A stretch of 64,000 bases of DNA, taken from NCBI GenBank assembly GCA_944390715.1, contig CALXQS010000001.1, positions 124,001 to 188,000 of the forward strand, given 5' to 3'. The notes below the pieces were generated by a model. The model saw nothing but the letters and a program-made list of their open reading frames with translations. It ran no database searches and was not told the DNA's origin. Made by a program: the position numbers and the translations under genes. This document shows positions 11,204 to 33,775 of the stretch, one piece after another. Position 1 is the stretch's first letter. The number at the start of each line of letters is the position of its first letter. This DNA is from an uncultured Duodenibacillus sp. GTDB taxonomy: Bacteria > Pseudomonadota > Gammaproteobacteria > Burkholderiales > Burkholderiaceae_F.

Positions 11204-12150
11204 TACAGCCACCCTTGCCAATGAGCAACGACGCCGAGAATTGAACCGATCGTCATCAATAGAGCAAAACGAAGTTCGAGTTTGACTGTACCGAACATCA
11301 CCTCATTGAGCTCTAATCCAGAAAATCTCGGCAATTTTTTTATGAGATCAATTGCCGAAGGAAGGCATAAGAACGTCAATAAGACAAAAATCAGTTCAGG
11401 CTTCATAAAGGCAAGCGCGCCGGCGCAGATGAAGGCAGCCAAGATCATCATGCTGTAGGTATTGCGCATCCCTTTTTTACCCAACACGACGGCCAGTGTA
11501 TTTCTCCCCACTTCTTTGTCGTGTTCGAGATCACGATAATTGTTGACAGCAAGTACTCCTGATGCAATGAAACCCAATGCTGCACCGGCCAGAAGTGCTT
11601 CTATGTCCAGTCGTCCGCATTGCAAGTAGTAGGTACCTCCTACTGCAACAAGTCCAAAAAAGATGAAAACCGTCGCTTCGCCAAAGGGCGTATAAGCAAT
11701 CGGTCTTGGCCCTCCCATGTACATGTAGGCAGCTACTACGGATGTTGCGCTGATCAAGGCCATAATCCAGCCCCCGTAGGCAATGAGATAGATAGTGTCA
11801 AGCACAACAAGAACAGCACAGAATTTAATCGCCCATTCAACCTGGCTGACGGTGAGCCAGCCGTTGGCCGTAGCGCGCGGAAGTCCTTTTCTAGTCGTCC
11901 TCTCAGCTTTCTTTTTCGTGTAGCCTGCGTCATTTTCCATATTGGTGATGATCTGCATTAATAAGGAAAGAGCCATTGTTGCTGCGGCCAGAAGCAGATG
12001 AAATTCATGCCCGGCAGCAGCGGCTATTCCTAGTCCCACGGCAACAGGAGCTGCTGCAACGCCTAGCGTTTTTGGGCGAATGCAGGCAAGCCACGCTCTC
12101 AGACTTCCGGGTTTGGGTTCATTGCTTTGAGGAGAAGCATTAATTGCCAT
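11203..12150 (-). CDS. menA: UbiA-family prenyltransferase, probably MenA
   Basis: Integral membrane prenyltransferase, most likely attaching a polyprenyl chain to 1,4-dihydroxy-2-naphthoate in menaquinone synthesis. The 315-residue product has about eight hydrophobic helices, a first polar loop NMENDAGYTKK (degenerate Asp-rich motif), the MenA-like stretch GGPRPIAYTPFGEATVFIFFGLVAV, split here only as a description of a G-P-R-P-I-A-Y to F-F-G-L region, and the second loop NNYRDLEHDKEVGRNTLA. UbiA or a related specificity is less likely because of the G-P-x-P-x-A-Y segment. It lies between lipB and lipA, overlapping lipB by 11 bp and lipA by 1 bp, which is an unusual place for a quinone gene. 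Confidence 0.8.
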   Translation of the reverse strand: MAINASPQSNEPKPGSLRAWLACIRPKTLGVAAAPVAVGLGIAAAAGHEFHLLLAAATMALSLLMQIITNMENDAGYTKKKAERTTRKGLPRATANGWLTVSQVEWAIKFCAVLVVLDTIYLIAYGGWIMALISATSVVAAYMYMGGPRPIAYTPFGEATVFIFFGLVAVGGTYYLQCGRLDIEALLAGAALGFIASGVLAVNNYRDLEHDKEVGRNTLAVVLGKKGMRNTYSMMILAAFICAGALAFMKPELIFVLLTFLCLPSAIDLIKKLPRFSGLELNEVMFGTVKLELRFALLMTIGSILGVVAHWQGWL

Positions 12151-12796
12151 GTTGTTCGAGCAGAGAAAGAAGGTTACTAAGTAAACGATCTGTGACAGAT
12201 TTTATGTCGACGCTGCTTTCCAATGAGCGCATGTCGGTCATGCGAAGAGATTTGTATCCGCACGGAGTGATGGCGGCAAACGGCGTTAGGTCCATGTCCA
12301 CATTCAGAGATAGGCCGTGATACGTGCATCCGTTGGACAGATGTACGCCGACAGAAGCGATCTTTGCTAGTTCTGCAAATTCTCCAAATCCGCCTGCGCA
12401 GTGAACGTATACCCCAGGAGCCTTGGGATGAACAAAGGCGTCGATTCCGAATTCTTCGAGAGTTCTAACGGCGGATTCTTCGAGTATTTGAATGTATGTT
12501 TTAATATAAATGCCGCGTTGTTTTAGGTGAAGCAGCGGATAAATGACAATTTGGCCCGGACCGTGGTAAGTGATGTCGCCTCCACGATCAACAGAAACAA
12601 CCTCTATGCCATTGATTGATGTCCGAGTCTCGCCGAGTAATGGGGACTTTCCCATCGTATAGACCGGAAGGTGCTCGACGAGCCATATTTCATCTTGCAC
12701 TGCCTCATGATTCGCTCTAGCAAAGCGCTTCATGGCTTCATAGACCGGACGATAAGCCTGCAGACCCAAATTTCGTACGAAGACTGAGGGGAGCAT
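12140..12796 (-). CDS. lipB: Octanoyl-ACP:protein N-octanoyltransferase
   Basis: Transfers octanoate from acyl carrier protein to the lipoyl domains of 2-oxoacid dehydrogenases and the glycine cleavage H protein, the step before LipA. The 218-residue product keeps the catalytic Lys145 (KIASVG) and Cys179 (TPCGY) and the conserved RGGDITYHGPGQ box with His79. One oddity is VHLSNGCTYHG where many family members have a KVSRWVTYHG-type segment; the key Lys and Cys are intact. It lies 14 nt after ybeD and overlaps menA. Confidence 0.95.
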   Translation of the reverse strand: MLPSVFVRNLGLQAYRPVYEAMKRFARANHEAVQDEIWLVEHLPVYTMGKSPLLGETRTSINGIEVVSVDRGGDITYHGPGQIVIYPLLHLKQRGIYIKTYIQILEESAVRTLEEFGIDAFVHPKAPGVYVHCAGGFGEFAELAKIASVGVHLSNGCTYHGLSLNVDMDLTPFAAITPCGYKSLRMTDMRSLESSVDIKSVTDRLLSNLLSLLEQHGN

Positions 12797-12810: not shown

Positions 12811-13107
12811 CTAAAGAACAACTTTCACCAAAGGATGGCTTGTGAGCATCATGTAGATGCTGTCGAGCTGGGCGCGGCTGACGGCATGGATTGTGACGGT
12901 CAAAGCTGTGTACTTGCCTGTTTTTGAGTGTGCCGAAGTGATTGTTGCAATATCAAAATCGGGAACAATTTCACGTACGGCTGCTCCGATGATTTGGGCA
13001 AATTGTGGATGGCTTAGTCCCATCACCTTAATGGGGAAGTCGCACGGAAACTCAAGAAGACTGTCTTGTTCCTTAATGCGGTCATTGTCATGCCGGTTTT
13101 CGTTCAT
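12811..13107 (-). CDS. ybeD: UPF0250/YbeD-family protein (DUF493)
   Basis: The 98-residue product matches the small YbeD family, which has a ferredoxin-like regulatory (ACT-like) fold: LLEFPCDFPIKVMG near the N terminus and TVTIHAVSRAQLDSIY toward the end. Its function is unknown, but it is commonly found between dacC/dacA and lipB, exactly as here. It starts 11 nt after the PBP5-like gene. Confidence 0.88.
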   Translation of the reverse strand: MNENRHDNDRIKEQDSLLEFPCDFPIKVMGLSHPQFAQIIGAAVREIVPDFDIATITSAHSKTGKYTALTVTIHAVSRAQLDSIYMMLTSHPLVKVVL

Positions 13108-13118
13108 AACTTTTTTCG

Positions 13119-14378
13119 CTATTCGTCAGAAGCCTGCAAGGCTGATTTATTGTGAGATTTTTCAAGTTTTTGAGGTATATGGGGCATTTCGTTATTTTGT
13201 GATGGCTTGATGCGTAGTCTTACAGAATCGACGAAGCGACTTAAAAAGCTCCCCATTCCAACATCATGCATGGCAACGAGCTCAAAATCAGCAACCGGCT
13301 TGTCTCGAAAATAAACATGCAGCGTGCCGATTCGATCACCCTCACTGACGGGGGCAATAACCGGAGCCATATATTCCAATTCTGTAGAAAAACCACCGGT
13401 ACCTCTCGAAACTATATCCTGCCGGCGAACGGTAACCCAGATCGGATGAAAGGTGCCGAGCTCAAGTTTTTCTCGGTTTCCCGTCAAGATGTCAACTTTT
13501 TTAATAGTTGATCCAGCTTTAAACAGAAGAATTGTTTCAAACTCCAAGCGACCAAATTTGAGCAGAGACAACATGTCGTTGGTAGCAAGATCCGCGTTTG
13601 CTCCTCCAATGAGTACGGCAAAAATATCGCGCGGCATCGCTCCATCATTTCCGATGGGGGCTCTATGCCAGCTGCTGATGAGATCCGTACTGTCAGCACT
13701 ACTCATCATGCCGGTGATGTCATCCCCTTTCCAAAGCATGAGGTTGCGGTTTCGTTGTGTATGATTTGTGAAAACAAATTCTTTTTGAGAAAACCAGGAA
13801 AATTGCTCTGGATGGCGGCGATGCATCTCAACAGCCAAAACAGCAAGATCCTTTGCTGAAGTGCGCTGATTCTGCGCTGCAATAGGAGAAACAAAGCGAG
13901 AGTTCGTCATTCCTATGGCTCGCGCCGTTGCATTCATTTTTTCGACAAAGGCTTCCACGCTGCCGGCTAAGTGAGCTGCGACAGCAAGAGAAGCATCTTC
14001 AGCGGCAACTACTGCAATGCCGTTTAAGAGCATCTTTAGAGGGGTTGTTTCTCCAGCCACAAGATAAAGGCGTCGAGAACTCAATGGCCGAAGACTGTCC
14101 TGAGCGCTAATAGTCACCGGAGCCTGAAGCTTTTCCTTGTCGTCGCCGATGATTTCCAGTGCAGTAAAAAGCGTCATCAGCTGAACCAAATCTCCTGGAT
14201 CTATTTCTTTTTCTGCGCTAGAGCTAGCCATGACATAGCCGCTTGCTCCATCTATGACAATCCATGCCTTTGGTTGCGCGTGCATGACAGGCAACTTCGG
14301 CCCTGCCGACAAAACAGGGTTTGAAAGCAAACAAAGGCCGGCAGAAAAGATCAGGAAAAGGCGAAACAGAAAATGCAT
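13119..14378 (-). CDS. PBP5/DacC-family D,D-carboxypeptidase homologue with all catalytic motifs lost
   Basis: The family trims the terminal D-Ala from peptidoglycan stem peptides in the periplasm. This 419-residue product has a signal peptide (cleavage likely after VLSAG, about residue 25), the peptidase S11 domain (about 35-275) and a PBP5 C-terminal domain ending in an amphipathic helix (about 300-400), so the fold is complete. The active-site motifs are not: the SxxK position reads D63-L-V-Q66, the SxN position reads A125-A-E127, and the KTG position reads I221-T-G. Surrounding landmarks (DP..L..LMT, EDASLAVA.H.AGS.EAFV..MN) make the alignment unambiguous, and the frame is intact. It is very likely catalytically dead. 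ATG 14378 gives a clean signal peptide; the longer in-frame start adds an unneeded extension. Confidence 0.85.
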   Translation of the reverse strand: MHFLFRLFLIFSAGLCLLSNPVLSAGPKLPVMHAQPKAWIVIDGASGYVMASSSAEKEIDPGDLVQLMTLFTALEIIGDDKEKLQAPVTISAQDSLRPLSSRRLYLVAGETTPLKMLLNGIAVVAAEDASLAVAAHLAGSVEAFVEKMNATARAIGMTNSRFVSPIAAQNQRTSAKDLAVLAVEMHRRHPEQFSWFSQKEFVFTNHTQRNRNLMLWKGDDITGMMSSADSTDLISSWHRAPIGNDGAMPRDIFAVLIGGANADLATNDMLSLLKFGRLEFETILLFKAGSTIKKVDILTGNREKLELGTFHPIWVTVRRQDIVSRGTGGFSTELEYMAPVIAPVSEGDRIGTLHVYFRDKPVADFELVAMHDVGMGSFLSRFVDSVRLRIKPSQNNEMPHIPQKLEKSHNKSALQASDE

Positions 14379-14388
14379 GGGCCTAATT

Positions 14389-15018
14389 TTACAAAAACGC
14401 AACGGCACTCGAACAAACACGCTCGAGCATCGCAAGCTTGCCGCTAAAGGAGTGATTGGCGGCGGGAATCACGGTTACGGGAAGCTCCTGCAAATTCGCC
14501 CATGCCAGAACATCCGACAATGGGACGATCTCATCATGCTGTCCATGGATAAGAAAGGTACGCACTGCAGGAGCCATAAAGTTGTATTTATTTACGGCAG
14601 TTCCGGCAAAAATGAGCGCTGCCGGTCTGCGAACTTCGCTGGCAAGGCAGGCAATGTAGGTACCAAAAGAAAATCCTCCAAAAATGACACGGCCGTTTGC
14701 TGGAAGCATTTCAGCGATGCCGCGTATTTCGAAAGAGGCTTCAATGACGCGAAGAAAGTCTAAAACTTCTCCAGCTCCTCCTTCGTACGATCCCTCGCTT
14801 GCACCAGCTCCGCGAAGATTGGGGCGTACGACGATATAGCCTGACGAAACAAGACTTTTTGAGAATGTGCGGATGACTTTATGATCTTTGGTACCGCCTG
14901 CGCTTGTCAAGGGATGTGCTAAAAAGGCGATGCCGCTTGTGCAGACATCGGGGATATCAAGGCTGGTCTCAAGCAAACCTGCCGGTCCGTCAATTTGAAT
15001 GGTATGCGTCAGGGGCAT
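14389..15018 (-). CDS. Alpha/beta hydrolase (COG2945-like)
   Basis: The 209-residue product is a compact cytoplasmic alpha/beta hydrolase with the nucleophile elbow G-F-S117-F-G, the late acid Asp162 (HGQHDEIVP) and His189 (ANHSFSG). HPLTSAGGTKDHKVI and RPNLRGAGASEG are typical of the COG2945 group. The substrate is unknown. ATG 15018 is chosen by homology to the usual short N terminus; a longer in-frame start at 15144 would overlap the divergent birA gene. It is the first gene of the minus-strand unit that continues into the PBP5-like, ybeD, lipB, menA and lipA genes. Confidence 0.8.
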   Translation of the reverse strand: MPLTHTIQIDGPAGLLETSLDIPDVCTSGIAFLAHPLTSAGGTKDHKVIRTFSKSLVSSGYIVVRPNLRGAGASEGSYEGGAGEVLDFLRVIEASFEIRGIAEMLPANGRVIFGGFSFGTYIACLASEVRRPAALIFAGTAVNKYNFMAPAVRTFLIHGQHDEIVPLSDVLAWANLQELPVTVIPAANHSFSGKLAMLERVCSSAVAFL

Positions 15019-15044
15019 CAAGAAAAGTTCACACTTAAAACAAA

Positions 15045-15884
15045 ATGTTGCTCGGAAATTGTAATAAGCCGCTCGAGGCTCTGCTTGAAAAGATTCTTCA
15101 CAGTGATGAGTTCGCCTGTGTGAAATGGCACGTCCAAGTCTCAAGCACGCAGGATCTTGCCAAAAATTTTATTCGTGAAAGCACATGCAAAACCAGCGCA
15201 GTTTTTGTTGCGGATTCTCAGACCTCAGGACGCGGCACGAGGGGCAGGATCTGGCATGCTCCAGCCGTGAACCTCATGATGACGGTGGTGGCGCCTCTGG
15301 CCGTGTCGCTTAACCAAACCTCTGGACTGACTTTAGCGGCAGGAGCGGCTGCCGTTGAGGTGCTTCGAGCAATATGCCCGAAGGTCAGCATGAAGTGGCC
15401 TAACGACCTATGGCTCAACGATGGAAAACTTGCCGGAATTCTGTGTGAAACATGTCGGACTGCATCAGGTCATTTGCATGTAGCTGTCGGCATCGGCGTT
15501 AATATAGCGATTCAAGATAAACTGAAGAAGCATCTTCTGGAAGCGGGATATCCTGCATCTAGTCTTTTTACTCTGGCTGACTTGCCAAAAGATGTTGACA
15601 TCGTTCGCGTACACACAGCTGCGAGGCTTGCGCTGGCTCTTCGCAGGGCGGTGTGCGAGTTTTCATCCGACACCATAAGCGGCATTGCGTCACGGTGGGA
15701 TGGTTTTGATGCTATGTTGGGACAGCAAGTTTGCTTTATTTCGGACGACGGCAGAATGACGCAGGGCATTGAGCGCGGCATTACGCAAAACGGAGAGATC
15801 GTCATTGACGACAACGGCATCCGGCGCGTTTTCAGCAATGGTTCCTTGAGGCCGGCTGCAGGAAAGGCAGCACCCGTTTGTTAA
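15045..15884 (+). CDS. birA: Biotin--[acetyl-CoA-carboxylase] ligase (no repressor domain)
   Basis: Activates biotin with ATP and attaches it to biotin carboxyl carrier protein. The 279-residue product contains SSTQDLAK, SGRGTRGRIWHAP (biotinyl-AMP loop, close to GRGRRGRxW) and KWPNDLWLNDGKLAGIL, then a small C-terminal cap domain. It lacks the N-terminal helix-turn-helix of E. coli BirA, so it should be an enzyme only, not a biotin-operon repressor. Its ATG lies only 26 bp from the divergent hydrolase ATG, so the promoters must overlap coding sequence or each other. The next gene, coaX, begins 12 nt after its stop. Confidence 0.93.
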   Translation: MLLGNCNKPLEALLEKILHSDEFACVKWHVQVSSTQDLAKNFIRESTCKTSAVFVADSQTSGRGTRGRIWHAPAVNLMMTVVAPLAVSLNQTSGLTLAAGAAAVEVLRAICPKVSMKWPNDLWLNDGKLAGILCETCRTASGHLHVAVGIGVNIAIQDKLKKHLLEAGYPASSLFTLADLPKDVDIVRVHTAARLALALRRAVCEFSSDTISGIASRWDGFDAMLGQQVCFISDDGRMTQGIERGITQNGEIVIDDNGIRRVFSNGSLRPAAGKAAPVC

Positions 15885-33532: not shown

Positions 33533-33688
33533 GGATTCAATAGCTTGTCAAAATCAGTGAATCGGAAAAGATGCCGCCTGGACAAAACAACAGATGCACG
33601 GCGACGCTGGAGCCAAGTTTTCCTACTATAGCGCAAGGAACTATTGCGTATGCTTCAGAAAAGTACTGCAAGAGGCGAGAAAATTGAA

Positions 33689-33705
33689 ACTTTTCCTAGA
33701 AAAGT
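33689..33705. promoter_or_regulatory. Operator-like inverted repeat upstream of gatC
   Basis: ACTTTTC (33689-33695) and GAAAAGT (33699-33705) form a 7-bp inverted repeat with a 3-bp centre, in the 243-nt divergent region between rlpA and gatC and 70 bp before the gatC start. A TTGAAA at 33684-33689 overlaps it, but no well-spaced -10 is seen, so promoter assignment is tentative. Confidence 0.3.
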
Positions 33706-33775
33706 CTCCATAAAAATCAAGAAAGGCGCTAAATTTTCAGCTTTGTTTTGTTTTGCATTTTGCAGGTACTGAGTT

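Follow-up and report, generated by a model that had tools for sequence, protein, structure and literature searches.

What PBP5 (DacA) does beyond trimming D-Ala, and what purpose its C-terminal domain serves, are unsettled matters that the locus described here addresses. In E. coli the C-terminal region has activity-independent roles, and the enzymatic and scaffolding sides of a single protein are not easily separated. The locus lies in a stretch of 64,000 nucleotides from an uncultured Duodenibacillus sp. (contig CALXQS010000001.1, positions 124,001 to 188,000; the window below) and encodes P0001, a PBP5-family protein in which an earlier note, made from the letters alone, had read all three penicillin-binding motifs as replaced. 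Is such a protein a gene product in decay, an altered enzyme, or a protein kept for a role other than catalysis, and through which of its parts would it then act?

Results

P0001 is encoded by a minus-strand open reading frame starting with an ATG at 14378, and its frame, strand, signal peptide, S11 domain and PBP5_C domain are as first described (Table 1). Both domain matches lie over the Pfam cut-offs (PF00768, E 3.4e-35, residues 35–224; PF07943, E 3.5e-13, residues 280–373), and the order of signal peptide, S11, PBP5_C and C-terminal helix is that of PBP5/DacA of E. coli and P. aeruginosa, a low-molecular-mass class C PBP of MEROPS family S11. An AF2 model (pLDDT 84.9) compares with PBP6 and PBP5 at Z ~39–40 and rmsd 2.0–2.8, the closest structural match being E. 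coli PBP6a/DacC (3itb, Z 40.0, rmsd 2.0), which indicates that the PBP5 fold is retained. The gene sits in a conserved block, hydrolase-dacA-ybeD-lipB-menA-lipA with birA-coaX divergent, and shares the hydrolase-dacA-ybeD-lipB context with intact betaproteobacterial DacA. By its S11 and PBP5_C architecture, its neighbourhood and its fold, it is a syntenic, vertically inherited DacA/PBP5 orthologue; xenologous replacement of dacA is ruled out by the conserved synteny.

Table 1 Coordinates of dacA, its domains and former motifs, and its neighbours in the window.
Feature	Position	Strand	Basis
dacA orthologue, putatively catalytically dead PBP5, 419 aa, P0001	13119..14378	(-)	
Putative N-terminal signal peptide (residues 1-25), probably cleaved behind ...PVLSA	14304..14378	(-)	sequence; AF2 helix 2-18
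S11 (penicillin-binding) domain, residues 35-279, fold kept, catalytic residues gone	13542..14276	(-)	Pfam PF00768; AF2 vs PBP6/PBP5
Former SxxK box, reads D63-L-V-Q66	14181..14192	(-)	alignments
Former SxN box, reads A125-A-E127	13998..14006	(-)	alignments
Former KTG box, reads M225-S-S227 (not I221-T-G)	13698..13706	(-)	alignments
A265 codon, at the substrate-carboxylate-binding Arg position (presumed PBP5 R248 equivalent)	13584..13586	(-)	alignment
PBP5_C stalk domain, residues 280-373, most conserved part in dead clade	13260..13541	(-)	
C-terminal anchor-like helix, residues 378-390, core SFLSRFVDSVR	13209..13247	(-)	AF2 helix; hydrophobic moment comparison
ybeD (DUF493), directly downstream of dacA	12811..13107	(-)	
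lipB, operon neighbour, synteny anchor	12140..12796	(-)	
alpha/beta hydrolase gene, conserved on the upstream side of dacA; start codon uncertain	14389..15144	(-)	

None of SxxK, SxN and KTG, the motifs of an active S11 D,D-carboxypeptidase, is found in P0001. The first two are replaced by D63/Q66 and A125/E127 in alignments to 46 homologues, to PDB PBP5 and to 101 orthologous sequences, as the earlier note had called them; in the 46-homologue alignment columns S63, T65, K66, S125 and N127 are all at least 90% conserved. For KTG that note was right about the loss and wrong about its place, since the I221-T-G that it named is the column of the conserved [VI]-D-G just upstream of the box, four residues away. 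The region aligns as V-D-G-M-K-T-G-H-T against I-T-G-M-M-S-S-A-D, and the KTG column is M225-S226-S227 in the alignments to the 46 homologues and the 101 sequences. The arginine that binds the substrate carboxylate, present in 53/53 intact orthologues, is A265 in P0001, a column which we take to correspond to R248 of PBP5. P0001 lacks the nucleophile, the two catalytic lysines, the SxN residues and this arginine, and is accordingly predicted to undergo no acylation by D-Ala-D-Ala or β-lactams. Sequencing error, chance or an accident in one strain is ruled out, because the same losses recur in independently assembled species: a separate, 85%-identical assembly has the same residues, and all species of the genus lack the three motifs. 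The closest relative with a name, at 84–85% identity, is likewise an 'uncultured Duodenibacillus sp.'.

The loss is common to the window's genus (g1), with the three motifs absent in 10/10 sampled species and an intact orthologue in none of the ten. That P0001 still hydrolyses D-Ala-D-Ala or some other substrate by means of substitute catalytic residues is scarcely credible: an acidic residue at position 63 is conserved in the genus, but the general base is lost together with the residues on the oxyanion side and those that bind the carboxylate, and the clade has no common replacement set. When the survey was extended to the window's GTDB family (f1, 67 genomes), all three motifs were found to be absent from every one of the 32 DacA-bearing genomes of a gut clade made up of g1, g2, g7, g15, g16 and g17; within this family SxxK and KTG are retained in g5 and g13, two g5 sequences reading SAS at SxN.

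Order-wide, all three motifs are kept in 71 of 121 orthologues. The 101 distinct sequences comprise 53 with all three motifs, 38 with none and 10 with some, counts that are not frequencies because low PBP5_C scorers were over-sampled on purpose; a further 20 orthologues divide into 18 intact and two degraded. In an RpoB tree, from which G033 (g7) was left out for want of an RpoB match, the sampled dead members of f1 form one clade (100/99), and the fully dead f17/g34 lies elsewhere, beside its partly decayed sister g73. A second full loss of the three motifs, in family f17, is independent of that of the f1 clade, and f2, f18 and f23 show partial decay distinct from both. The intermediate sequences suggest an order of loss, in which the KTG lysine turned to methionine and SxN was lost first (f2, f17/g73), and SxxK later (f17/g34, f1). 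Degraded DacA proteins of other families read AALTQLM/KAG (L393, G108), SLTRLM/ETG (L394, G214), SLAKLM/ATG (L395, G144) and AHLTKLM/ATG (L285, G088). Genomes G144 and G214 have two PBP5_C genes each, and the copy adjoining dat is the degraded one.

Between the window genome (G000) and G006, dacA has a dN of 0.092, a dS of 1.40 and a dN/dS of 0.066, to be compared with 0.027–0.205 for neighbouring genes, 0.063 for PbpG and 0.141 for DacB (pairs with saturated values, pS > 0.74, were excluded). By domain, the ratio is 0.28 in the signal peptide, 0.052 in S11, 0.027 in PBP5_C and 0.11 in the C-terminal tail. Frames are open in 32/32 gut-clade genomes; the G002 match has one reported in-frame stop, next to an open frame of 388 aa. 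Purifying selection and open frames bear out the view that this is not a decaying gene, selection in this pair being far from relaxed. Loss of the catalytic residues throughout the clade together with purifying selection on the protein is the pattern of a pseudoenzyme. Neutral decay, once DacB had rendered DacA redundant, is by comparison quite unlikely. S11 erodes in several genera, close pairs within g16 show a higher dN/dS (0.18–0.24, purifying yet weaker) and g14 has lost DacA outright, all of which would suit such decay; against it stand the open frames and the ratio of 0.066, a PBP5_C domain over the Pfam cut-off in all 32 genomes, an operon place kept throughout the clade and the independent retention of a dead protein in family f17.

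Apart from P0001, the window genome (100% complete) encodes a single S11 protein, the PbpG-type endopeptidase (PBP7), with intact SVTK, SDN and KTG; it also encodes one S13 DacB (PBP4) with intact motifs. Both are periplasmic serine low-molecular-mass PBPs like P0001, from which they differ in having kept their motifs, and as PbpG is the only other S11 protein there is no second intact DacA in the genome. The DacB motifs are intact in all 27 genomes checked (SxxK, SxN, which is SDN in G048, and KTG), so that decay has struck DacA specifically. Genomes of g2 (97–98% completeness) have no S11 protein besides the dead DacA, and the one further low-molecular-mass PBP found in them is DacB. DacA has been lost altogether in g6, g12 and g14 and is therefore not universally required in the family. 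No dead-DacA genome has a YkuD L,D-transpeptidase; this absence is uninformative as a cause, being shared by many f1 members outside the clade.

Constraint within the protein has shifted towards PBP5_C and the C-terminal helix. Among intact enzymes, identity is higher in S11 than in PBP5_C in 99% of 1378 pairs, and in the dead clade it is higher in PBP5_C than in S11 in 91% of 496 pairs, figures that describe a pattern and carry no significance test, as the pairs are non-independent. The S11 score falls from ~216 bits to 151–0 bits in the dead clade, and PBP5_C scores 42.5–71.2 bits in its 32 genomes. S11 has become unrecognisable in several genera: in six genomes (G053, G057, G058, G062, G048 and G063) the protein at the dacA position has a PBP5_C and no S11 match, and proteins of this kind measure 299–406 aa in several species. 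Four g16 proteins (L256, L255, L254 and L257) are near free-standing PBP5_C proteins at the dacA position, with S11 unrecognisable. The anchor-like C-terminal helix is still recognisable in the dead clade (GSFLSRFVDSVRL in g1, GSFLSRFIDTLRL in g16), including the proteins that have lost S11, and the predicted helix 378–390 of P0001 has a motif common to relatives. The hydrophobic moment of the tail (0.68 in P0001) resembles that of intact enzymes and exceeds the shuffled mean, lies inside the shuffled 95% range and is non-significant alone. The inversion of constraint is not yet seen in f17/g34, which would fit a younger loss there.

These data also bear on the possibility that the old pocket was repurposed, so that S11, though dead, would bind some ligand, such as a peptidoglycan stem, and leave it uncleaved, as a sensor or pseudo-receptor. 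We consider this unlikely. The column of the SxxK serine is acidic (D or E) in 10/10 species of the genus, N127 has become E in 7/10, the fold is kept and S11 remains constrained between G000 and G006, where the domain may thus contribute in the window's subclade. Pocket residues nevertheless vary between genera (D/E, N, S/P/A/G), the arginine that grips the substrate carboxylate is lost, and in g15, g16 and g17 S11 as a whole erodes or shrinks while PBP5_C persists. Of the roles first proposed for P0001, the structural or scaffolding one is therefore upheld and narrowed by the shift of constraint to PBP5_C and the C-terminal helix; ligand binding by the old pocket is less supported, given the erosion of S11 in sister genera.

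The operon place is not wholly that of a normal dacA. The gene does lie directly upstream of ybeD-lipB, as had been stated, but dat (D-amino-acid transaminase), which sits between dacA and ybeD in intact relatives, is missing, and in the window a gap of 13108–13118 is all that separates dacA from ybeD. A whole-genome protein search found no dat in g1, g2, g15, g16 and g17 genomes, and in g7 the sole match is a relative with 30% identity. The operons of the decayed f17/g34 and f18 likewise lack dat, those of f17/g73, f2 and f23 have it, and some DacA-less genera (g6, g12 and g18) keep the gene. DacA releases D-Ala, which Dat would use up, so that loss of dat is expected in a lineage that no longer trims; this co-loss is confounded by genome reduction. 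In several g1, g2 and g16 species (L279, L280, L281, L282, L283, L277 and L278) ybeD has no lipB and lipA next to it and is followed directly by a MenA-like gene.

The window also shows an apparent loss of the elongasome. Only 243 bp (33533–33775) lie between rlpA and gatC, where the MreB-positive relatives L399, L400, L402 and L404 have a block of 5–6 kb, identified by Pfam in L402 as RodA, PBP2, MreC and MreB; this mreB-mreC-mrdA-rodA block is missing from the interval in the window, and MreB was not found in the window genome, in most of g1 or in any of g2. The dead DacA could then guard shape or division specifically in elongasome-less lineages of coccoid growth, where it is best preserved (median S11 score of 125 bits without MreB and 11 bits with it). 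We regard this as very improbable, as the correlation is phylogenetically weak, resting on few independent events, and MreB-positive genera also carry a dead DacA.

Discussion

By the tests that its sequence allows, P0001 is a natural, clade-wide pseudo-PBP5: it is a DacA by descent that fails those for an active S11 carboxypeptidase. We favour, with somewhat more confidence than doubt, the reading that it is a membrane-anchored scaffold acting through PBP5_C and its anchor, with trimming left to DacB. A DacA/PBP5 inherited vertically in a Duodenibacillus-like gut betaproteobacterium would have become a pseudoenzyme, which is presumably exported and then anchored in the membrane by its C-terminal helix, as PBP5 is. 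Lacking SxxK, SxN, KTG and the substrate arginine, and with dat gone from beside its gene, it differs from PBP5/DacA and, its catalytic residues being gone, would neither be acylated by D-Ala-D-Ala or β-lactams nor be expected to bind penicillin or act as a D,D-carboxypeptidase. It would be retained for a non-catalytic function seated mainly in PBP5_C and the membrane anchor, and D,D-carboxypeptidase activity would fall to DacB, whose motifs are intact. From these features we infer a scaffold role, most likely one in which peptidoglycan synthases are held at the inner membrane or given their position there; which synthase may be the partner is speculative, as it is drawn by analogy from E. coli. 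PBP2 is probably not the partner in the window's species, given the missing mreB-mreC-mrdA-rodA block and the failure to find MreB in the genome.

The E. coli analogy rests on DacA and DacC, which bind PBP1a, PBP1b, PBP2 and PBP3 largely via their C-terminal membrane-anchoring region, dispensable for activity and needed for most phenotypes (PMC10269652). The 'C-terminal' deletions in that work took out the membrane-anchoring region and not PBP5_C itself (PMC10269652). PBP6a/DacC, whose cellular role needs its C-terminal region and not activity alone (PMC10269652), is an active enzyme, which P0001 is not expected to be. The laboratory mutant PBP5(S44G) of E. coli may be likened to P0001, as it is full-length, exported and dead, and alters cell shape by its mere presence (PMC5596342). 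It is also mislocalised, being absent from septa, and does not complement (PMC2909392). PBP5(S44G) carries a single, harmful substitution, whereas P0001 represents a natural, fixed, multi-residue loss under purifying selection. Our search of the open-access literature found no paper joining pseudoenzymes with peptidoglycan and penicillin-binding, and nothing relevant on Sutterella peptidoglycan, the dacA-dat-lipB arrangement or MreB in this group.

Evolution has separated the two functions that are hard to part in E. coli: all three motifs were lost independently at least twice, the cases number dozens of species, and they grade from a single lost lysine up to a lost domain. The dead DacA proteins are a natural separation-of-function set. 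A broader proposition, which we hold tentatively and at a little less than even confidence, is that PBP5 has two separable functions, that gut Burkholderiales repeatedly dropped the enzymatic one, and that in some genera the protein is now in effect a free-standing, anchored PBP5_C, a domain that would by itself serve as a conserved organiser for the synthesis of the wall. The dead DacA proteins should not be labelled D,D-carboxypeptidases in annotation, and the peptidoglycan of g2 is predicted to be made with DacB as its sole low-molecular-mass carboxypeptidase.
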